A stretch of 37,372 nucleotides of DNA from a virus. Below are positions 179 to 37,372 of the stretch, in pieces; positions within the stretch are counted from its first letter, which is position 1, and every line of letters begins with the position of its first letter. The notes under the pieces are model-generated. The model had not been told where the DNA came from and searched no databases. It saw only the letters and a program-made list of their open reading frames with translations. The DNA lies in IMG/VR virus record IMGVR_UViG_3300046747_000284, positions 1 to 37,372 of that record; one strand, written 5' to 3'. Both the position numbers and the translations under genes were made by a program.

Positions 179-409
179 CTACCCCGCCGCGCTCCGCATC
201 GAGCGTTCCCGCGCGAGCGCGGCGCTCGCGTCGTCGCGCGACCGCTGCAGCGCCGAGATGGTCTCGGCGTTGATGCGCGCCGCGAGCACGGCATCGGCCC
301 GCGCACGCAAGTAGCCGTGCGCGAGTCGCTGCGCGCTGCGGTTCGCCCGCGCGTTCGCGAGCACGTCCACCGCCAGCTTCGTGAGCAGCTCGTGATTGAC
401 CGGCATCAT
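179..409 (-). CDS. Small hypothetical protein, last gene of leftward operon
   Basis: This is a 76-residue protein of unknown function. It starts at the ATG at 409, which overlaps the TGA of the upstream 309-residue gene (ATGA) and follows a GGAGG site 3 bases before. A second ATG directly follows and could also serve. The sequence is largely helical and rich in Ala and Arg (NHELLTKLAVDVLANARANR), with no cysteines, signal peptide or membrane segment. Translational coupling and the terminator just beyond its stop make it the final cistron of the operon. I do not recognise the family. Confidence 0.7.
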   Translation of the reverse strand: MMPVNHELLTKLAVDVLANARANRSAQRLAHGYLRARADAVLAARINAETISALQRSRDDASAALARERSMRSAAG

Positions 410-1335
410 GGCCTCCAGTGTTTGATGGCGTGGACGGGCTTCCAGTAGCTCGCGCCGCTGGGGATGAACACATCGTGCTCCTGCATCTCGAACGTCGAGC
501 GGCTAGTGCGGACCGCGAGCGTCGCCACGCCGCAGTCGCCAGCGCGGCGGAACCCGAAGCAGACGCAGCCCGCGATGAGCGTCGTCACCGGGTCGTCGTC
601 CACGCGAAGCAGCCACGTCAGCGGCACGACGATGGTGAGCACGACGTCCCCTGCCGCGAGCCAGCCGCGCGCGGTGTCGTACCTCTCGCCGGCCGCGTGG
701 ACCTTGATGCCCGGCGCGTGCGTCGCGTCGGCGATGCCGAAGATGACGTCGGTCGTGATGTCATCGTACATGCCGTCGCCGACGTCCTTGCGCTCGATGG
801 ACCGCGCCGTGCCGCGCAGCCCGTCCATGATGCGGTCGCGCACGCGCCGCGCGCGCCACTTGGCATCGAGCGGGCGCATCGTCGACGGCCGGAAGCTGTC
901 TTGGACCGCGTTCCGCATCGGCTTGGTCCGCTGCGTCGTCTTGAGGAGCACCGCCGCATCGCCGCGCCAGAACTCCGACGTCAGCACGCGGTCGATGAGG
1001 CCGAGGCAGCCGCAGGTCTGGTCGCCGAGCGCCCGCATCGTCCTGAGCGCCCGCAGCTCCTCGCGCGTGTGCCCGTGGAACGTGATGCGACCGCACGGCG
1101 TCACCGTGCAGGTATGGAGCGTGCCGCTGCACCGGACCTTCACGCGCACCGGCGGGGTGCTTCGGATGGTGGATGTGGACAGCGTGTCGATGCCGCGCCG
1201 GTTCGCGTACTCCTGCTGCAGGAGGGCGGGCAGCTTCCCCGCCCTCCACTGGTTCAGTTTGCGCTGCCGCGAGTAGTACCTCTTGGTGAGGACGCTGACG
1301 TCGGCTTGGCGGATTCGCGTTTCGAGCGTGGCCAT
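406..1335 (-). CDS. Hypothetical 309-aa protein downstream of the VWA gene
   Basis: The product is unknown. The start ATG at 1335 shares one base with the TGA of the VWA gene (TGATG) and is preceded by an AAGGAGG-like site, so it is translationally coupled. An in-frame upstream extension exists but lies inside the VWA gene and is not needed. The protein has a basic N-terminus, several cysteines (CSGTLHTCTV, CGCLG, CVCFG) and a hydrophobic stretch around residues 230-245 followed by acidic residues, which could be a beta core rather than a membrane helix. Its fixed place after the AAA+ and VWA genes suggests it is a partner or substrate of that pair. That is inference from position only. Confidence 0.75.
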   Translation of the reverse strand: MATLETRIRQADVSVLTKRYYSRQRKLNQWRAGKLPALLQQEYANRRGIDTLSTSTIRSTPPVRVKVRCSGTLHTCTVTPCGRITFHGHTREELRALRTMRALGDQTCGCLGLIDRVLTSEFWRGDAAVLLKTTQRTKPMRNAVQDSFRPSTMRPLDAKWRARRVRDRIMDGLRGTARSIERKDVGDGMYDDITTDVIFGIADATHAPGIKVHAAGERYDTARGWLAAGDVVLTIVVPLTWLLRVDDDPVTTLIAGCVCFGFRRAGDCGVATLAVRTSRSTFEMQEHDVFIPSGASYWKPVHAIKHWRP

Positions 1336-2936
1336 CACTTGGCCTCCTTCTTCGGCGGGTTCACACGGACCAGCGGACGGATGTGCGCTGGCACCTCGGC
1401 TTCTCCGACCACGCACGTAACCAGCCGTGCGCGGCGCGGCATCTCGTGCAGCGCCGGCCACGGCGTGTAGCCGTCGGTCACGAGCACGATGACGTCGAAC
1501 TTCCGTTCCTCGGCGGCCTTGATGCCGACACGCATGTCCGTGCCGCCGCCGCCCTTCATCAGCTTCTGCAGGTCGTCCTTCGTCTTGACCAGCACCCACG
1601 CCTGCACCGTCGCGTCGACCGCCGCGGCCCACGTCGCGCAGCCGGTCGCGAGCACCACCGCGCCGACCTCCGACAACGCTTCGTCGAACACCGTGCGGCC
1701 GCTGCGACCTGCTGCCTGCATCGAGCCGGATGCGTCGATGACGATGCCGACCTTCGGCACCGGCGATGCGTGCCCGGGCAGGATGGGTGCGTCGTCGCCG
1801 AACACCTGCTCGATGGCGATGCGCCGCCGCGACGGGCGTCCGTACTTCTGCTCGATGCGACCGCGGACGTAGGCGACCGCGTTCCGCACGAGCGGCGCGA
1901 GCACCTTCTGCCACGGCACCTCGCTCGGTGCGAGCTGCGCCTTCGCCCACTGCTCGAACGCGCCGGGCACCGTGCCCTTCCCGTAGTCCTTCATCAGCCG
2001 CTTCATCTCCGGCGTCGGCTCGAGCGTGTCGTGCGCGACCTGCCGGCGTGCGATGTCGGTCGTCGATTCCGACGCGCCCTTCGGCATGTCGTCCTCGGCG
2101 ATGTCGTCCTCTAGCTCGTGCTTGTGACCCGAGCAGCCCCCGCACATCCCTTCGAACGGTCGAGGCGCTTCCGGTTTCTCGTCAGCGCCGTCAGCATCCG
2201 GCTCATCAGCCGGCGCGCTCTCAGCGGCGGGGTCGTCGAGCGGAGAAGCGTCCGCATCGCTTGCGCCGTCTGCAGGTCCATCACCGTCGCCATCCGTCTG
2301 CCCATCGTCGTCGGCAGCACCAGCTTCGGAATCCGTGTCGCTCCCATCGGCCTGCTCCTTGTCGTTGTCCTTCGTCGGCTGCTGCATCCCCGGCATGCCC
2401 GGCTGCGGCTGCGGCTTCTGCTTCAACGCCTCGGCGCGCGCGAACAGCTCGTCCGCGTACTCCTCGGCCAGCTTGCCCTCCTGCAAGCCGAACGTTGCTG
2501 GGAACAGCGGCTTGAACCCGGGCGGGAACACGAAGCCCGAGGCGATGACCGTCGGATTGATGACGATGTCGGTCACGCAGTTCCACATGAACGCGACGCC
2601 GCGCCCGAGCAGCGGATGCAGCTTCGCGAGCCACGGCTGGAGCGCGTGGTATCGCGCGCTCTCGCGTTCGACGAACTCGTTGCCGCGGCGCAGGTCCTCG
2701 CGCAGCGGATGCTGCACCTCGTGCGCGAGGAACGTCGAGCAGTAGTCCGTGCCCCACTTCGTCACCAGCGCCGGGTCGAAGTGGACGCGCAGCTTCTGGT
2801 CGACGAAGAACGTCCCCGCGCCCGGATGTTCGACGGGCTCCAGCTTGAACAGCATCTTCATGAAGTACGGCAGCTTCCGGTAGACGCCCATGCGAGCGGC
2901 GCACACCATGTCGAACGCCGAAAGGTCTCTGCTCAT
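1335..2936 (-). CDS. VWA / DUF2201-type metallopeptidase-like protein
   Basis: A 533-residue protein with the layout of the DUF2201 family. An N-terminal zinc-peptidase-like domain carries HEVQH at residues 72-76 (HExxH). A long acidic, low-complexity linker spans roughly residues 195-270. A C-terminal VWA-like domain holds a MIDAS motif DASGS at 401-405, with a later VTDGY. Proteins of this type work with MoxR-type AAA+ ATPases, and one such gene lies two genes upstream. Known pairs of this general kind (RavA/ViaA, NorQ/NorD, CobS/CobT) remodel or metallate target complexes, but the substrate here is unknown. The ATG at 2936 is chosen because AAGGAGG precedes it and the longer reading frame overlaps the upstream gene. 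Whether HEVQH is catalytic is not shown. Confidence 0.85.
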   Translation of the reverse strand: MSRDLSAFDMVCAARMGVYRKLPYFMKMLFKLEPVEHPGAGTFFVDQKLRVHFDPALVTKWGTDYCSTFLAHEVQHPLREDLRRGNEFVERESARYHALQPWLAKLHPLLGRGVAFMWNCVTDIVINPTVIASGFVFPPGFKPLFPATFGLQEGKLAEEYADELFARAEALKQKPQPQPGMPGMQQPTKDNDKEQADGSDTDSEAGAADDDGQTDGDGDGPADGASDADASPLDDPAAESAPADEPDADGADEKPEAPRPFEGMCGGCSGHKHELEDDIAEDDMPKGASESTTDIARRQVAHDTLEPTPEMKRLMKDYGKGTVPGAFEQWAKAQLAPSEVPWQKVLAPLVRNAVAYVRGRIEQKYGRPSRRRIAIEQVFGDDAPILPGHASPVPKVGIVIDASGSMQAAGRSGRTVFDEALSEVGAVVLATGCATWAAAVDATVQAWVLVKTKDDLQKLMKGGGGTDMRVGIKAAEERKFDVIVLVTDGYTPWPALHEMPRRARLVTCVVGEAEVPAHIRPLVRVNPPKKEAK

Positions 2937-2965
2937 CGTCTGGCCTCCTTGATGGCCTCGGGGAA

Positions 2966-3541
2966 CTACACCGCGAGCGCGGTGATGCCGCTCGCCTCGT
3001 TCTGCATGGCGAAGAACATCGCCGACTTCGCCTTGATGCTCTGGCGCAGCGCATCCGACAGCGCGCCGATGTCGCCGGTGATGTCGAAGTGCAGCGCGCC
3101 CTCCTCGACCGCATCCGCAATCTGCTTCGCGCGGTACAGCGAGGCGTAGGCGTAGGCCTTCGTCTCCTTCAGGTGCTTCTCGCGCTCGGGCGTTCCGGTG
3201 CCGAGCGCCTTCGCGGCGTCGAGCCGCTTGCGGACCTCCGCGACCACCGCGTCGACGAACGCCCGCGTCTCGTCGAGGTCCTTCGTCATGTATTGCTTCG
3301 CCAGCGCGACGACCTTCTCCTCCTCGTGCTCGGCGAACTCGACGACGCCGGGCTTCGCGCCCTTCTCCGTCCACTCCTTCAGCGGGACGAGCGCGACGTG
3401 CTTCATCGGCAGCACCCACACCGACTTGTTCCAGCGGAAGCCGAGCCGGCGCAGGAACATCGACGGGTTCGGCATCTTGACCTCGCTGGGGATGTCGTAG
3501 CACAGCACCGCGTACTTCTGAGTTCCATCGTGGAGCGTCAT
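2966..3541 (-). CDS. Hypothetical protein with Cas2/PaaX-like N-terminus
   Basis: A 191-residue protein placed between the AAA+ and VWA genes. Residues about 8-50 read YAVLCYDIPSE, then FLRRLGFRWNKSVWVLP. This matches the beta1 strand, conserved Asp, helix and 'GF..xSVW' second strand of the Cas2 / PaaX middle-domain ferredoxin fold. The rest (about 60-191) is helical, Lys/Glu/Ala-rich and unlike Cas2. No Cas1 or CRISPR repeats are present, so a role in spacer acquisition is not implied. An RNA- or DNA-binding or oligomerising role within the AAA+/VWA module is possible. The start at 3541 follows AGGAGG and sits 10 bases after the ATPase stop. The fold match was made by eye. Confidence 0.75.
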   Translation of the reverse strand: MTLHDGTQKYAVLCYDIPSEVKMPNPSMFLRRLGFRWNKSVWVLPMKHVALVPLKEWTEKGAKPGVVEFAEHEEEKVVALAKQYMTKDLDETRAFVDAVVAEVRKRLDAAKALGTGTPEREKHLKETKAYAYASLYRAKQIADAVEEGALHFDITGDIGALSDALRQSIKAKSAMFFAMQNEASGITALAV

Positions 3542-3551
3542 GGCGTTCCTC

Positions 3552-4736
3552 CTAGTTCTTCGACGCGGTCGTGAAGCCCGCGGCGCGGATGATGGGTGCA
3601 AGCACCTCGTTGATGAACTTCTGGTACGTGGCGAGCAGCGCGCCCTTCGGACGATTGATGGCGAGCGTCTGACCGCCGAGCGCCAGCACCGTCTTGTCCG
3701 ACGCCGTCTCGCTGATGGCGACGAGCGCGTTCATCGCAGCGTTCCACCGCGCCGTCTTGTCGCCGTCCTTCATCGCCGCGGTGCGGTCCTTGTCGACCGC
3801 CGCGAGCGCGAGCTGCGTCACCGCTGCGAACGTCCGGTCCGGGCGCTTCGCGTCGTGCTTGAAGTGGTGCGGGTCCTTCAGCCAGTCCTCGGGGTCCGGC
3901 AGGTCGCTGTCGGTGTAGAACGCCATGAACTCCAGCGCCTGCGCCGGCCCGACGAGTCCTTCGCCGATGGTCTGCATCGCTTCGACGTCGCCGAAGATGT
4001 GGCACGTCGCTGCGACGCGGATGAACGCTTCCCACGACCGCGGCGTCGCCCACGCGAGCGGCGACCGCGCGAGGATGCGCTCGTCCTTCTCCGGGTCCTC
4101 GTCGAGCACGCCGCGCCGATGCATGAAGCCGGCGTAGACCGCGCTCGTGTACCGGAACGCTTCGTCCTCCTGCTCGGGCGTCGGCTTCTCGGGCAGCTCC
4201 AACGGCGTGTCGCGACCGCCGCCGGTGATGAACGACGCGTGCTCCATCGCCGTGACCTTCAGCCACGGCAGCCAGCAGATGCGGTTCCCCATCGGCAGCG
4301 AGATTTCCTGTGCGTCCGCAGCCGACGACGTCGGGTTCATCGCACCGCCCATGCGAACGTGCGGGCCGAGCACGTAGTCGCCGCAGCGGCGCGTGTGGAT
4401 GAAGCGCAGCATCGCGCTCTGCGTCGACCGCGGGACGTTCGACAGCTCGTCGAGATTGATGATGGCGCGCGGTGCTGCGTTCGCCTCCTTGAGCGCCGCC
4501 ATCATCTCGAGCCGCAGACCCTTCTCGCGGTCGGCCCACGGCATCCCGTTGAAGTCCTCGGCCCCCATCTGCGCGGGGGCGAGGTCCAAGTAGAACGCGT
4601 CGAGCGCGCGCGCGACCGATTCGAACAGCGCTGACTTGCCGCCGCCCGGTGCGCCGGTGAACACCGGCATTACGTTCGTCTTGGGCGTCGAGAGGACGTA
4701 CCAGAGCAGCCGTGCGTTGCGTGCGAAGTTGTTCAT
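3552..4736 (-). CDS. MoxR-type AAA+ ATPase
   Basis: A 394-residue AAA+ ATPase. The Walker A is GAPGGGKS at residues 28-35, the Walker B is IINLDE at 92-97, and a polar sensor-1 region (GGAMNPTSS) follows. The sequence 'LDELSNVPRSTQSAMLRFIH' is typical of the MoxR / dynein-like branch that partners with VWA proteins. The C-terminal half contains the helical lid and a long family-specific tail ending with a helical segment. With the VWA protein encoded downstream it should form an ATP-driven remodelling complex in the cytoplasm. The start at 4736 has a GAGGG site upstream. All core motifs look intact, so the enzyme is probably active. Confidence 0.88.
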   Translation of the reverse strand: MNNFARNARLLWYVLSTPKTNVMPVFTGAPGGGKSALFESVARALDAFYLDLAPAQMGAEDFNGMPWADREKGLRLEMMAALKEANAAPRAIINLDELSNVPRSTQSAMLRFIHTRRCGDYVLGPHVRMGGAMNPTSSAADAQEISLPMGNRICWLPWLKVTAMEHASFITGGGRDTPLELPEKPTPEQEDEAFRYTSAVYAGFMHRRGVLDEDPEKDERILARSPLAWATPRSWEAFIRVAATCHIFGDVEAMQTIGEGLVGPAQALEFMAFYTDSDLPDPEDWLKDPHHFKHDAKRPDRTFAAVTQLALAAVDKDRTAAMKDGDKTARWNAAMNALVAISETASDKTVLALGGQTLAINRPKGALLATYQKFINEVLAPIIRAAGFTTASKN

Positions 4737-4755
4737 GATTCCCTCGTGGAATGGT

Positions 4756-4780
4756 GGGGCGCGGCGCGATGCCGCGCCCC
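4756..4780 (-). other. Perfect GC hairpin upstream of the AAA+ gene
   Basis: GGGGCGCGGC (4756-4765) and GCCGCGCCCC (4771-4780) form a perfect 10-bp stem with a 5-base loop. It lies in the 50-base gap between the 72-residue gene and the AAA+ ATPase start. There is no T tract on the leftward strand, so it may be a processing or stability element, or a partial attenuator, that adjusts expression of the downstream ATPase block. Confidence 0.6.
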
Positions 4781-4786
4781 GGTGGG

Positions 4787-5005
4787 TCAGCCCTTCGCGG
4801 CGCGCTTCGCTGCGCGCGCCAGCTTCCGTTCCTTCTTCAGGTCGTCGGCGGCGATGAGCACCGCCTTCAACCAGAGGTGTCGCAGGCTCGCCGCGTAGAC
4901 CTTGCGGCGGTGCTTCTCGCGGAACTCGACGATGCCGCTCGGATAGAACGTCGCGACGATGAGCCGGCGTTCGCCGAGGTCGTAGATGCGCTTCACCGGC
5001 TTCAC
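4787..5005 (-). CDS. Small basic hypothetical protein
   Basis: A 72-residue protein of unknown function. The chosen start is GTG at 5005, which overlaps the TGA of the upstream gene (GTGTGA) and is placed just after AGGAGGT. The longer frame upstream is a shadow of the preceding gene. The N-terminal half alternates strand-forming residues (RRLIVATFYPSGIVEFREK) and the C-terminus is a Lys/Arg/Ala-rich helix, suggesting nucleic-acid contact. It belongs to the leftward operon just before the AAA+ gene. Confidence 0.7.
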   Translation of the reverse strand: MKPVKRIYDLGERRLIVATFYPSGIVEFREKHRRKVYAASLRHLWLKAVLIAADDLKKERKLARAAKRAAKG

Positions 5006-5205
5006 ACCACCTCCTGCTTGAACGCGCGCACCGCCTGCGCGAACACGCGCCGCGTGTCCTCGCCGCGGGCCAGCTCGATGCGCTGCCCGGCCTCCCAGTA
5101 GCCGAGCGCCCACACGTTCTTCCTGATGAACCAGCCGACTGCCTTGCGCGGCGCGACGACCTTCCGCAGCGCCTTCACGCTGTCGTGATGCTGGAGCTTC
5201 GCCAT
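5002..5205 (-). CDS. Small hypothetical protein
   Basis: A 67-residue basic protein (MAKLQHHDSVKALRKVVAPR...) of unknown family. Its ATG at 5205 shares a base with the TAA stop of the upstream gene (TAATG), so it is translationally coupled. It has a Trp-containing central region (VGWFIRKNVWALGYWEAG) and no membrane segment. Its role is unknown. Confidence 0.65.
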   Translation of the reverse strand: MAKLQHHDSVKALRKVVAPRKAVGWFIRKNVWALGYWEAGQRIELARGEDTRRVFAQAVRAFKQEVV

Positions 5206-5402
5206 TACCGCGCCTCCTCCTCGGCGAACAGCTCGAAGTCGGTCGACAGGTTGGCGACCAACGCGCTCAGCTTGAACGCGTCGCTCTGGAGCCAGCAGTC
5301 CTTGCCCAGCCCAACGGTGAGGCTCGATGCGTTCATCAGTTCCTTCTCGGCGCGCTTCAGCGCAGCGATGGCCTTCACGATTTTGCGGTCCAGCTTCTTC
5401 AT
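5205..5402 (-). CDS. Small helical hypothetical protein
   Basis: A 65-residue protein of unknown function. It starts at the ATG at 5402 after an AAGGAG site (spacing about 8), and the longer upstream frame has no support. The N-terminus is a Lys-rich amphipathic helix (MKKLDRKIVKAIAALKRAEK) and the C-terminus is acidic (FELFAEEEAR). It is the second cistron of the leftward operon. Confidence 0.65.
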   Translation of the reverse strand: MKKLDRKIVKAIAALKRAEKELMNASSLTVGLGKDCWLQSDAFKLSALVANLSTDFELFAEEEAR

Positions 5403-5443
5403 GGCCTTGGCTCCTTCGTCGTGGAGATGAGCTGCAGCGAGCG

Positions 5444-5701
5444 TCAGTACTCGATGACCTTCGCGACCGGCGCGCACGACTCGACGTTCATCCTGAGCGA
5501 CCAATCTTCGGCGGCGTATGCGCCGGCGCGAGTCGTCGGGAACGTGATGTCGAGTTTGGTCGAGCCCATGTTCTTTGAACCGTCGAGCTGCTTGAGTCGC
5601 TCGGTGCGGTACGTCTCGAAGAACTTGCCGCATGGCGATGCGGCGAACCCGTAGATGAAGAACGTCGTGCCGACTGGGATAGATAGGCGGGTGCGGGCCA
5701 T
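5444..5701 (-). CDS. Hypothetical protein, first gene of the leftward operon
   Basis: An 85-residue protein that starts at the ATG at 5701 after a GGAGG site. It is probably beta-rich (LSIPVGTTFFIYGF, STKLDITFPTTRAG) with two cysteines. I do not recognise a family. It is the first open frame after the roughly 490-nt leader, so any control exerted by that leader would act on this gene first. Confidence 0.7.
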   Translation of the reverse strand: MARTRLSIPVGTTFFIYGFAASPCGKFFETYRTERLKQLDGSKNMGSTKLDITFPTTRAGAYAAEDWSLRMNVESCAPVAKVIEY

Positions 5702-6198
5702 CGTGGGCCTCCATGTAATGGGCTGCGTTCGCTTCGCGCGCGCCCCCTTCTAATGGGGCGCGATTGCCTGCCTGCGCCGCGCGCGGGCGTTCGTCGGGCA
5801 TCCGCTCATCCGGGTTCCTCGCCCGGCGTCGTCATCGCGTGCCCGCGTCGTGCTGCGCGCGGTCCTTCTGATGGGCGTCTCAGTCGCTCATCGTCTCCGT
5901 TCGTTCCGACGCGTCCCTCGCCGCCCGCGCGCTGCTGCGGTCGGTGCATCCGCACCCTCGCCTCGCGGCGATGGTCTGCGGTGCTGCGATGGTCGCGCTC
6001 GATGTTGTCCCTGCCGCATGGCATCGGGGACGCCCACGAGTCGCGTGCATCGCTTCGGGCTTGCGCGTCGTATGTCCTGCTGTCGGGGTCGCTGCGCCGT
6101 CCCGCCCCTCACTGCGGCGTGCATTGGGTTGGCCTCGCGTTGCCCTTCGGCTCCGGGTTCTCCCGGGTCGCCGACCGCCCGGGGCACTTTCACGGCTG
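5702..6198 (-). ncRNA. Candidate structured leader / non-coding RNA
   Basis: The region lies between a sigma70-like leftward promoter and the first leftward gene and has no convincing gene. Over 5761-6180 I count 23 A and 94 T on the + strand, so the leftward transcript would be about 22% A and 5.5% U. Hairpins readable on the - strand include: 6166-6153 (CCGGG-AGAA-CCCGG); 6031-6007 (GUCCC/GGGAC around UGCC-AUGC-GGCA); 5971-5958 (UCGCC with GNRA loop GCGA); 5956-5943 (GGUGC-GGAU-GCACC); 5826-5810 (CCGGG/CCCGG); and 5762-5739 (8-bp stem, 8-base loop). GC-rich stems with A-rich loops suggest a functional RNA. No known riboswitch or large ncRNA class was recognised. It could be a cis-acting leader, a processed RNA, or just degenerate sequence. 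Confidence 0.5.
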
Positions 6199-6204
6199 CA
6201 TGTA

Positions 6205-6233
6205 ATGTAAGGCATGCGCGCCTGCGCAGTCAA
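6205..6233 (-). promoter_or_regulatory. Leftward sigma70-type promoter
   Basis: On the - strand, TTGACT (6233-6228) matches the -35 consensus in five of six bases. It is followed after exactly 17 bases by TTACAT (6210-6205) as the -10; TACATT with an 18-base spacer is also possible. The predicted start is near 6198, about 495 bases before the first leftward gene. This is the best promoter I can find in the window and should drive the nine-gene leftward operon. Confidence 0.7.
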
Positions 6234-6551
6234 CGGCTTGGACGTGGGCGTAAATGGCACCTCCGGAGGCCCTTCCCGGGCGCTTGCCGAGCGGCCGAAA
6301 CGAATCACGAACCGAGAGCAGCTCGCGCAGGCTGGCATCGGGCTAACTCGGACACGACGAACCTGCTGGGTGCGCGGGCGCGCCACTCAGCGTATCGGTC
6401 TCACGCCAGTCGCGACATCGCGCCGTTCTAAGTTCGATGCGGTCGATGAATCTCGCGCGGCACCCGCCTATGCTCTTGCGCGCCATTGTTCGTGCGGTCA
6501 CGATGCCACCACACGCGGTGCATCGTGCATCGCGAGAACCGGAGGGCTGCG
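6234..6551. other. Divergent intergenic region, right part
   Basis: No gene is supported here. It must hold the start signals for the rightward early genes, but I find no convincing -35/-10 pair; TATGCT at 6469-6474 is a possible -10 with no matching -35. A 10-bp palindrome CCTCCGGAGG lies at 6260-6269, about 62-72 bases upstream of the predicted leftward start, and could be a regulator site. The last 15 bases contain the GGAGGG ribosome site of the next gene. Confidence 0.5.
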
Positions 6552-6776
6552 ATGGCAACGACGACGGCGCGGAAGAAGGGTGCGAAGCGGACGCTCACCG
6601 AGAGGCTGCAGCGCGAGACCGACATCATCGCCACGTTCACTCGCAAGCTGCAGGCGGCGCGCGACCGGCGCACACGCATCATCGACGAGCAGGAGAACAA
6701 GGCGCGCGCGCTGCTGAGCGAGACGAGCAAGGTGCGCTCGCTTGAGGTGAACCTCACGGAGGACGCAGGTCGATGA
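6552..6776 (+). CDS. Small basic coiled-coil protein, first rightward gene
   Basis: A 74-residue protein starting at the ATG at 6552 after CGGAGGG (spacing about 5). It begins with a Lys/Arg-rich tail and continues as one long charged helix (residues about 14-65) with heptad-like hydrophobics, so a dimeric coiled coil is likely. Family unknown. Its stop overlaps the start of the next gene (ATGA), linking it to the recombination-type gene that follows. Confidence 0.7.
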   Translation: MATTTARKKGAKRTLTERLQRETDIIATFTRKLQAARDRRTRIIDEQENKARALLSETSKVRSLEVNLTEDAGR

Positions 6777-7813
6777 CCACAGAACTGGAAGTCGTGGCGG
6801 AGCCGACGCAGGTCGCGTCGCTCGCACCGTTGAACGCCTCGCTCGCCATCGAGCAGCAGCGCGAGGCCGGGCTGAACGCTCTCGCTCGCATCACCGACGC
6901 GGAGTTCATCGAGCGCATGAAGTCGCTGCGCCTCGGCCTCGACCGCTTCGACATGATGATGCGCGAGGTCTTGGAGCCGGGCGTCGACCTGATGACCATC
7001 GAGGGCGTGCCGAAGCCCATCCTCACGCTGAGCGGCGCGGAGAAAATCTGCTTCGTCGCTCGGCTCGTGCCGTCGTTCATCGTCGAGCGCAGCATCGGCT
7101 CGCCGCCCGAGTCGCCGGCCATCCACTACGTCATCCGCTGCAACCTGCACCTCGGCAACGACGGCGGCCCGGTCGTCGCGCAGGGCGTCGGCTCGGCGAA
7201 CTCGCACGAGAAGAAGTACCGCTGGCGCAACGCCGAGAAGAAGTGCCCGGCGTGCAGCGTCATCGGCGCGGTGGTGAAGTCGAAGTTCGATGCGAAGCCG
7301 GGCACCGAGTTCGCCGGCACCAAGCCGTGGTTCTGTTGGAAGAAGAAGGGCGGCTGTGGCGCGGAGTTCGCCGAGGACGACACGCGCATCACCGGGCAGA
7401 CGCTCGGCATGGTCGAGAACGCCGACCCCTACGACCTCGACAACACGCTGCTCAAGATGGGGAAGAAGCGCGCGCTCGTCGATGCGGCAAAGACGGCGAC
7501 GGCCTCGAGCGGGCGCGTGACTCAGGACCTCGACGAGAACGTGGGAACGAGCGACGCCGCCGTGAGGCTGCGTGCCGGCATCGCCGACGTGGCGAAGAAG
7601 CTCGGCTGGTCGAAGCTCGGCGACATCTTCACGGTCGTGTCCAAGGCAACGGGCAAGCCGGTCAAGACGAAGGTGGAGTACGAGAAGCTGACGGCGAACG
7701 ACCTCGCGAAGGTGCTCGCGGCGATGCCGTTCCCGAATGAAGCCGCGCCCGTTGACGAGTCCGCCGCTGACATCGACTCCGGCCCGACGAGCGACGGGGA
7801 GGACCTGCCATGA
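6773..7813 (+). CDS. Zinc-ribbon phage recombination-type protein
   Basis: A 346-residue protein. The middle part has the sequence style of a widespread phage family found next to Gp157 and single-strand annealing genes: GVGSANSHEKKYRWR, then CPAC ... CWKKKGGCGAEF (zinc-ribbon cysteines), then NTLLKMGKKRALVDAA and VTQDLDE. Cys pairs near residues 159/162 and 188/195 probably bind zinc. The N-terminal 100 residues are helical. From its place beside Gp157 it probably acts in DNA recombination or annealing of phage DNA, but I cannot assign it to RecT, ERF or Rad52 with confidence. The start at 6773 overlaps the preceding TGA and follows GGAGG. Confidence 0.75.
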   Translation: MTTELEVVAEPTQVASLAPLNASLAIEQQREAGLNALARITDAEFIERMKSLRLGLDRFDMMMREVLEPGVDLMTIEGVPKPILTLSGAEKICFVARLVPSFIVERSIGSPPESPAIHYVIRCNLHLGNDGGPVVAQGVGSANSHEKKYRWRNAEKKCPACSVIGAVVKSKFDAKPGTEFAGTKPWFCWKKKGGCGAEFAEDDTRITGQTLGMVENADPYDLDNTLLKMGKKRALVDAAKTATASSGRVTQDLDENVGTSDAAVRLRAGIADVAKKLGWSKLGDIFTVVSKATGKPVKTKVEYEKLTANDLAKVLAAMPFPNEAAPVDESAADIDSGPTSDGEDLP

Positions 7814-22241: not shown

Positions 22242-22253
22242 GGGCGGCGCGAC

Positions 22254-22478
22254 ATGAAAGAAGTCCCGCAGTCCGAGCAGCCAGCGGCAGCGCCGCTCCC
22301 AGCAGAACCCTCACGCCGAGGCAGATACCTCGGCGTGAGTGGGCGTCGCTTCGAGTCGTACCCGTTCGGTTCAACGCTCGTGTGCCAGTCGGGAGAAATC
22401 TACGAACTCGGCTTGGAGTACGAGTACCTGTGGACCGACACGAACTTCGCTCATCTGTGGGAGTGGGACCCCAAGTAG
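22254..22478 (+). CDS. Small virion-region hypothetical protein
   Basis: A 74-residue protein with an AGGGCGG site. The first 30 residues are Pro/Ala-rich, and the second half (YPFGSTLVCQSGEIYELGLE, NFAHLWEWDPK) looks like a compact beta domain. A perfect inverted repeat (22310-22339) lies within the frame. The family is unknown; a capsid decoration or head-completion role is possible from position. Confidence 0.6.
   Translation: MKEVPQSEQPAAAPLPAEPSRRGRYLGVSGRRFESYPFGSTLVCQSGEIYELGLEYEYLWTDTNFAHLWEWDPK
22310..22339 (+). repeat. Perfect 12-bp inverted repeat within the small post-capsid gene
   Basis: CTCACGCCGAGG (22310-22321) and CCTCGGCGTGAG (22328-22339) pair perfectly around the loop CAGATA. 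There is no following T run. It lies about 70 bases after the capsid stop codon. It could stabilise the 3' end of capsid mRNA or partly block onward transcription or translation. Confidence 0.7.
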
Positions 22479-22498
22479 TTCGCAGCGGTATGCAGCTC

Positions 22499-22563
22499 GC
22501 GGGCACCGCCCGCCGAACGGTGGTGCGGCCCCACCGAGCGGTGGCTCCGGTGCCCGCGTCTTT
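22499..22563 (+). terminator. Nested hairpin / weak terminator before the connector gene
   Basis: Outer arms GCGGGCACCG (22499-22508) and CGGTGCCCGC (22548-22557) pair perfectly. Inside, CGGTGG (22518-22523) pairs with CCACCG (22531-22536), and a second CGGTGG (22539-22544) could compete for the same arm. GTCTTT follows, giving a short T run. The structure fills the 99-base gap between the small gene and the connector and probably lowers transcription out of the capsid region. Confidence 0.6.
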
Positions 22564-22577
22564 ATGAGGAGCACGAC

Positions 22578-35921: not shown

Positions 35922-37258
35922 TGGCGAAGGCGAACGGTGCGGTCGCTCGGCCGAGCGGCGGCCTCACCATCGTCACGCTCGACATCGCCAAGCTGAACCC
36001 GGCTCCGTACAACCCACGCCGGATGACCGAGGAGCAGGCGAAGCAGCTCGTCGCCAGCATCAGGAAGTTCGGGTTCCAAGAGCCGGTGATTGTGAACCGC
36101 CATCGGTCGCGGATGAACGTCATCGTCGGCGGGCACATGCGCGTGCGCGCGGCGCAGGCGCTCGGCTACAAGCAGGTCCCGTGCGTCTACGTCTCGCTCG
36201 AGGAACCGCAGGAGCGCGAACTCAACCTGCGCCTGAACCGGAACCTCGGCGAGTGGGACTGGGACCTGCTCGCAGAGTTCGACGTGCCGGTGCTGCGCGA
36301 CGTCGGCTTCACCGACGAAGAACTGGTGAAGCACTTCGACATCGACGACGGCACCGGGTCAAGCGCGACCGACACCCTGCCGGACGAGCCCGCGCCCGAG
36401 CGCGTGAAGCCCGGCGAGGTGTGGGCGCTCGGCGACCATCGCGTCATCTGCGGCGACTCGACCGACGCGCCGACGCTGGCGAAGCTGCTCGGCGACCTGC
36501 GCATCGACTTCGTCGTGACCTCGCCGCCCTACAACGCAGACGTGGCGTACGACGAGCACGACGACAAGATGACGCGCGAGGACTACCTGAAGCTCGTCAG
36601 CGGCGTCGTCGGCACGTTCATGCCGATGATGAAGCCGGGGCGGGCCATCGCGTGGAACATCGGCGTGACGCCGAAGTCGGCGTACCACCGGCACGCCTGC
36701 GTCATCGAGGACTGCGGCGGCACCTTCGTCAGGAACCTCGTGTGGCGGAAAGCGGGTATCGCCATTCCGCTGGCGAGCGGCCACGACCACAAGGTGCGCG
36801 GCATAGCGCCGAACTACGTCCACGAGATGGTCATGGTGTTCGCGAACGGCCCGAAGCTCGAGCAGGGCGGCTCGGTGCATCTCGGCGACGTGATGCGCGA
36901 CGACGTGTTCACGATTGCATCGTCTGTGGCCACGCGCGATGTGCCGACGGTCAGCCCGACGAAGGGCGGCCTGAAGCGCAACCGCATCAAGGCGCACCCC
37001 GCGATGTTCCCCGTGCAGCTGCCGCGCGAGTTCGTGCGGTTGTTCAGCGAGCCGGGCGAGGTCGTGTACGACCCGTTCAGCGGTGCGGGCACGACGCTGC
37101 TCGCGTGCGAGGAGTCGGCGCGCGTGTTTCGAGGCGTCGAGCTGTCGCCGCGGTACGTCGACCTGACGCTGCTGCGGTGGGAGCGCATCACCGGCAAGCG
37201 GGCGGTCCTGCTGGGCGCGCCCGGGGGCAAGGCAAAGGCGGCCGCAGCAACGAGTTAG
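35921..37258 (+). CDS. ParB-domain DNA methyltransferase (beta class)
   Basis: A 445-residue protein. Residues about 18-110 form a ParB/Srx N-terminal domain (LDIAKLNPAPYNPRRMTEEQ, GGHMRVRAAQALGYKQVPCV). The methyltransferase follows: TSPPYN (motif IV) near 199-204 precedes DPFSGAGTT (motif I, AdoMet-binding) near 385-393, the beta-class order. The SPPY form is found in N4-cytosine and N6-adenine enzymes, so the modified base cannot be told. It probably protects phage DNA from restriction; no cognate nuclease is present. The start overlaps the holin stop. Its 3' end lies within the terminal repeat. Confidence 0.9.
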   Translation: MAKANGAVARPSGGLTIVTLDIAKLNPAPYNPRRMTEEQAKQLVASIRKFGFQEPVIVNRHRSRMNVIVGGHMRVRAAQALGYKQVPCVYVSLEEPQERELNLRLNRNLGEWDWDLLAEFDVPVLRDVGFTDEELVKHFDIDDGTGSSATDTLPDEPAPERVKPGEVWALGDHRVICGDSTDAPTLAKLLGDLRIDFVVTSPPYNADVAYDEHDDKMTREDYLKLVSGVVGTFMPMMKPGRAIAWNIGVTPKSAYHRHACVIEDCGGTFVRNLVWRKAGIAIPLASGHDHKVRGIAPNYVHEMVMVFANGPKLEQGGSVHLGDVMRDDVFTIASSVATRDVPTVSPTKGGLKRNRIKAHPAMFPVQLPREFVRLFSEPGEVVYDPFSGAGTTLLACEESARVFRGVELSPRYVDLTLLRWERITGKRAVLLGAPGGKAKAAAATS

Positions 37259-37372
37259 GACACGCATCGCACCACGCCTCCAAGGATGCCCTCAGGCGAG
37301 CCCGCCGGGGCACCGCGCCTCCGGGGCCAAGGACCGGCCTCGGGGGCGGCAGGCGGGCCTGTGGCGCATCGG
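37246..37372. repeat. Terminal direct repeat, right copy
   Basis: This is the exact copy of positions 1-127. It contains the final codons and TAG stop of the ParB-methyltransferase gene, then non-coding sequence that continues seamlessly into position 128 on a circular map. Confidence 0.95.

Follow-up and report, generated by a model that had tools for sequence, protein, structure and literature searches.

A uridine-poor untranslated leader behind a predicted leftward promoter in a previously undescribed phage

The divergent intergenic region and its operons

The window analysed here, 37,372 bases in length, covers positions 1-37,372 of IMG/VR record IMGVR_UViG_3300046747_000284 and comes from a phage, that is, a bacterial virus without earlier description. 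Since an exact 127-base terminal repeat joins its ends (1-127 is identical to 37246-37372), the genome is probably complete and circularly assembled. Best matches in the phage collection reached 32% for the terminase and about 27% for the portal protein, with no near relative there. Two operons diverge from one intergenic region, which is also the site of the cumulative GC skew minimum and holds the leader described below:

406-5701, minus strand: leftward operon, including the AAA+ ATPase and DUF2201/VWA genes
1335-2891, minus strand: DUF2201/VWA protein, by family match
3552-4736, minus strand: AAA+ ATPase, PHROG 1297, matching N4 gp24-like phage ATPases
5444-5701, minus strand: first gene of the leftward operon, 85 aa, with a coding signal and GGAGG before its start (5712-5708)
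From about 6552, plus strand: long rightward operon with a recombination-type protein, terminase, portal, head and tail genes

The DUF2201/VWA protein is the probable partner of the ATPase, and the 85-aa product of the first leftward gene had no match in Pfam, PHROGs or phages and belongs to no known family. At the end of the leftward operon, a strong G+C inverted repeat with an A-run before it (130-175; AAAAAAAGGGCCGGGG...CCCCGGCCC) looks like an intrinsic terminator for leftward transcripts.

Six-frame scoring with a codon model built from this phage's genes gave high values to the flanking genes and no coding signal in any frame across approximately 5702-6551. As had been noticed before this analysis, open frames within the block are without the strong third-position GC of the genes (0.63-0.75 versus 0.84-0.95 in most real genes); their matches to Pfam and PHROGs were not beyond chance, and a conserved protein frame was looked for and not found. 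Protein coding on either strand was rejected for lack of codon bias, family match and third-position GC bias. The minus strand of the region also holds a 19-codon upstream frame (MSGCPTNARARRRQAIAPH, 5809-5750), which has a GAGGA-like site before its ATG at 5809 and a TAG stop inside the loop of the hairpin at 5739-5762.

Features of the intergenic region, read on the transcribed (minus) strand, are as follows:

6204-6233, minus strand: predicted leftward sigma-70-type promoter, -35 TTGACT (6233-6228) and -10 TACATT (6209-6204)
6199-6207, minus strand: 5' copy of the 9-nt direct repeat CATTACATG, overlapping the -10 element
5719-6185, minus strand: uridine-depleted untranslated leader segment, 467 nt
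5986-6053, minus strand: 68-nt imperfect hairpin
5946-5984, minus strand: 39-nt hairpin with a GCGA (GNRA) tetraloop
5739-5762, minus strand: G+C hairpin with loop AUUAGAA (inverted repeat 5739-5749/5752-5762), a short distance upstream of the ribosome-binding site
5712-5720, minus strand: 3' copy of CATTACATG

The predicted promoter has 18-nt spacing with TACATT, or 17 with TTACAT (6210-6205), the pairing first proposed for this site, and its predicted start lies near 6198. It was the sole promoter-like match in a scan of 5000-7000, where shuffled sequences averaged 0.2. The first gene does begin at 5701, as the original prediction held, but the noncoding stretch measures 850 nt rather than 490, since on the upstream side it extends past the promoter as far as 6551. 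The two copies of CATTACATG are the only exact ones in the genome, and they flank the U-poor block. An inverted repeat, GCATG-N10-CATGC (6199-6220), lies across the leftward -10 element and could be an operator, as could a second (CACGATGC...GTGCATCGTG, 6494-6536) upstream of the rightward operon, a possible repressor site. The sequence CGATGCAC occurs three times within 5702-6551 and nowhere else in the window.

Composition and folding of the leader

Maximum-likelihood segmentation for low T content, run with no prior borders, delimited the segment 6185-5719, where T falls to 5.4% compared with 17.7% around it (log-likelihood ratio, LLR, 25.8 nats). It opens some 12 nt downstream of the predicted start and closes at the ribosome-binding site of the first gene. 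Recomputing the composition of 5761-6180 gave 22.4% A and 5.5% U on the transcribed strand, in line with an earlier hand count (about 22% and 5.5%), and no other 420-nt stretch on either strand is as poor in T; the runner-up among separate stretches, inside a gene, has 9.8%. Leftward genes do carry an excess of A over T, as the original prediction had cautioned, but this skew is too weak to explain the block.

The 497-nt leader contains only two UU steps and no RNWUU site, an absence shared by nearly half of genome windows, and its C-over-G content is low without being extreme (15% of genome windows are equally low). GGA motifs number 14 against 15.7 expected from composition; a reading of the leader as a CsrA decoy was rejected on the grounds that these motifs are not enriched. 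Selection on the composition of duplex DNA cannot by itself give one strand an excess of A over T, so that the transcript (or a single strand) would be what is selected. Transcription-linked mutation is a poor explanation, because cytosine deamination on the non-template strand adds T and does not remove it.

The transcribed strand of the whole leader folds with z-scores of -3.2 (100 dinucleotide shuffles) and -3.5, about -3.3 overall, compared with -1.8 and -2.6 for the opposite strand; a fold z reaching -3 was found in 7 of 74 control windows of the genome (~10%). Stability is more unusual in the 120-nt window 5940-6059 (z -3.63), as 1% of controls fall below -3. Among the leader's local structures the 68-nt hairpin is the best supported (6053-5986; minimum free energy, MFE, -36.2 kcal/mol, z -3.65, none of 200 shuffles as stable). 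Its tip is a bulged stem noted earlier, and the GCGA-loop hairpin next to it has a z of -4.42 (again 0 of 200 shuffles). Both the bulged stem and the GCGA hairpin of the original prediction thus appear in the MFE fold, while its third hairpin, with a GGAU loop, could form but is absent from that fold and competes with the 5940-6059 structure that the 68-nt and GCGA hairpins make up. The hairpin at 5739-5762, which has no U-run after it, is paired in the full-length MFE fold and unpaired in a local fold of the 3' end.

RNA structure in the leader is plausible on these folding models. The proposal that the leader is a structured noncoding RNA, however, is weakly supported: the fold of the window's leader is moderately stable, the leaders of two relatives (z -0.97 and -0.26) are no more stable than their shuffles, and the searches described below turned up no sequence homologue in which to look for compensatory changes.

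Leaders in related phages

Searches for the block itself found no homologue. Rfam, suggested earlier as a check, gave no match at the gathering threshold in the window and, for 5400-6600, none with E as high as 5; blastn searches of phages and plasmids with the region returned nothing or short chance matches alone; an exact 20-nt pattern from the block was not found in IMG/VR; neither the related contigs (about 1.5 Mb) nor the records of the relatives yielded homologous block sequence; and a covariance model built on the two neighbouring hairpins (108 nt) recovered no homologue. When the ATPase, the 477-aa protein and the VWA protein were each scanned singly against viral contigs, nothing matched; alignment-based scans were needed to find relatives. 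ATPase and VWA alignment scans re-found known records and nothing further, and a profile search of genome contigs with terminase and recombination-protein alignments found none.

Two relatives, L005 and G004, could be compared at the leader. L005 is the closer, with a terminase 77% identical, a recombination protein 59% identical, two small leftward genes in common and the same operons; in G004 the terminase is approximately 45% identical and the ATPase and VWA proteins 30-39% (ATPase 37-39%). In L086, L087, L089 and L090 the leader is not exposed in the contig parts examined. The 490-nt sequence is absent from both L005 and G004, but each has a short U-poor segment in the matching place. In L005, the 84 noncoding nucleotides up to the first leftward ATG contain a single T (1.2% versus 22% upstream; LLR 13.6), and in G004 an 85-nt noncoding segment contains two (2.4% versus 21% around; LLR 11.7). 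The G004 segment starts about 12 nt behind an independently predicted leftward promoter, TTGAAA-18-TAAACT; in L005 the TTGACT hexamer is present, with no full promoter by the scan's rule. This comparison has n = 2 and was made after the composition of the window had been seen.

To gauge rarity, all places with at most two T in 85 nt were listed across 1.47 Mb of phage loci. There were 54, of which 50 lie inside open frames of at least 130 codons; the four without a long open frame are the L005 and G004 leaders, a tandem repeat and an intergenic place in L086. The last (L086:6301-6387, minus strand) lies between terminase and portal, is C-rich and is unlike the leaders in composition.

Pairwise alignments of the three leaders scored no higher than shuffles (P = 0.07, 0.07 and 0.42). 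Homology of leader sequence was accordingly rejected, including for a 14-mer, GAGGGGCGGGACGG, common to the window and G004, whose alignment score is not significant (P = 0.07). The window's leader is also 5-6 times longer than the U-poor segments of the relatives. Across the predicted leaders, then, strand-specific U-depletion recurs and sequence, length and fold energy do not; that the depletion is kept without conservation of sequence or length argues for selection on the transcript, which may itself serve some control function. The original prediction, in which the AAA+/VWA operon has a leftward promoter and, behind it, a long U-poor leader that is not translated, is well supported at the level of sequence: the promoter scan, the missing coding signal, the match in extent between composition block and predicted transcript, and the U-poor segments in two relatives all speak for it. 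The long form of the leader, with its CATTACATG brackets, may be an expansion or insertion in this phage.

Candidate functions of the leader

The reading we favour, with a probability of roughly 0.4, is that the block is the untranslated 5' leader of an early leftward operon and acts in cis on its own transcript. Such a leader RNA would be selected for near-absence of uridine all the way from the start site's immediate downstream side to where the first ribosome binds, leaving G-C stems, A-rich loops and hardly any U. Loss of uridine would remove the weak rU:dA hybrid, the weakest of the RNA:DNA steps, would offer no U-rich RNase E-type site and no U-rich tails, and, with little C-over-G sequence presented to Rho, could let polymerase and transcript cross the untranslated promoter-proximal stretch without termination or decay. 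Put-like hairpins that touch the polymerase would possibly help. Transcription and its early timing are inferred here, as are a cis mode of action, any effect on termination or stability, and contact with the polymerase.

The put RNAs suppress both intrinsic and Rho-dependent termination in cis through the zinc-binding domain of the RNA polymerase beta' subunit. In the lambdoid phage HK022, putL, about 70 nt with two stem-loops just behind PL, provides a precedent for a cis-acting anti-termination leader, and the put RNAs act in cis against pausing and termination (PMC9378689). Like putL and putR, the leader described here would be an untranslated RNA downstream of an early promoter, and like putL it lies directly behind that promoter: predicted promoters and leaders stand in this arrangement in the window, in L005 (with a weaker promoter) and in G004. 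The 84-85-nt leaders of the relatives fit put in position and size. However, the window's leader is about 490 nt, the likeness is one of position and size, and U-depletion is not described as a trait of put, in which U matters in a conserved -10-like element carried by the first stem-loop.

A serious rival to this cis-acting reading, unlikely as we judge it, is that the transcript is an origin-linked primer: remaining paired with its template in an R-loop, it would start replication, and U-depletion and purine excess would serve hybrid stability. It is taken seriously because the three leaders rank among the windows of their genomes that most favour the hybrid (within the top 0.03-0.4% of windows for the balance of RNA:DNA over DNA:DNA, with 60-72% purine) and the GC skew minimum, which would suit an origin, lies here; R-loop-primed origins are known in T4 (PMC3016281). 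Like ColE1 RNA II and the T4 origin transcripts, the leader is a long untranslated RNA at a possible origin with favourable hybrid energy, but here the origin evidence is GC skew alone, and the skew minimum also marks the flip in gene direction. Hybrid stability is not independent evidence, because it follows from composition; the G-over-C skew of the block is slight (0.05), and neither initiator repeats nor an AT-rich unwinding region were identified. It is about as unlikely that the block has no RNA function and is inserted or decaying DNA of odd composition, perhaps a relic gene or an insertion with a 9-bp target duplication. Such a history would suit the exactly two copies of CATTACATG around the block and the lack of a long version in L005 and G004, yet it fits poorly with U-depletion at the matching place in those relatives and with its sharp borders at the predicted start site and the ribosome-binding site, and phages rarely retain useless DNA. 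An insertion with target-site duplication could account for the long version and leaves the relatives' U-depletion unexplained.

Readings that place the function in RNA shape or translation seem no likelier. That the operon transcript sheds from its 5' end a trans-acting structured RNA, such as a decoy or regulator of host factors, is improbable in our view: the 467-490-nt length, the fold of the transcribed strand (z about -3.3, moderately matched by the other strand) and the 68-nt and 39-nt hairpins (z about -3.7 and -4.4) would suit it, but no terminator separates leader from gene, no processing signal was recognised, no RNA family matched, the relatives' segments are ~85 nt of ordinary fold stability, and the GGA count speaks against a decoy. 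Still less credible is post-transcriptional control of the first gene or operon by a leader peptide, a riboswitch-like element or translational attenuation via the 19-codon frame and the hairpin that adjoins the ribosome-binding site. The GAGGA-like site and the TAG within the hairpin loop are what such control would use, but neither conservation nor any such arrangement was identified in the relatives, and local and global folds disagree on this hairpin.

More broadly, the leaders could tentatively be viewed as a composition-defined class of phage early leader in related phages, with near-absence of uridine immediately downstream of the leftward promoter, over lengths from 84 to about 470 nt, and with action, via composition, on RNA polymerase, RNA decay or replication priming; we think this possible and would not presume it. 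Confirmation would make it a leader RNA whose conservation lies in base composition alone, of a kind that sequence- or structure-based discovery would miss, and would raise the question of what penalises uridine early in a phage transcript, be it termination, decay, the stability of the hybrid or a defence aimed at uridine.

The downstream operon resembles the gp24/gp25 AAA+/VWA modules of N4-like phages in encoding a related ATPase/VWA pair, and we know of no comparable leader described for those modules. GOLLD and ROOL are often phage-borne. With these and OLE, large ornate RNAs of bacteria and phages (cryo-EM paper, PMC12286853), the leader shares a noncoding length of several hundred nucleotides, but it had no Rfam match at any threshold tried, it is joined to the downstream operon, and what recurs in the relatives is U-depletion, not shape. 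Elsewhere in the window, two long, near-perfect stems (fold z -3.86) occupy an intergenic stretch at 22242-22577, behind the major head protein gene.
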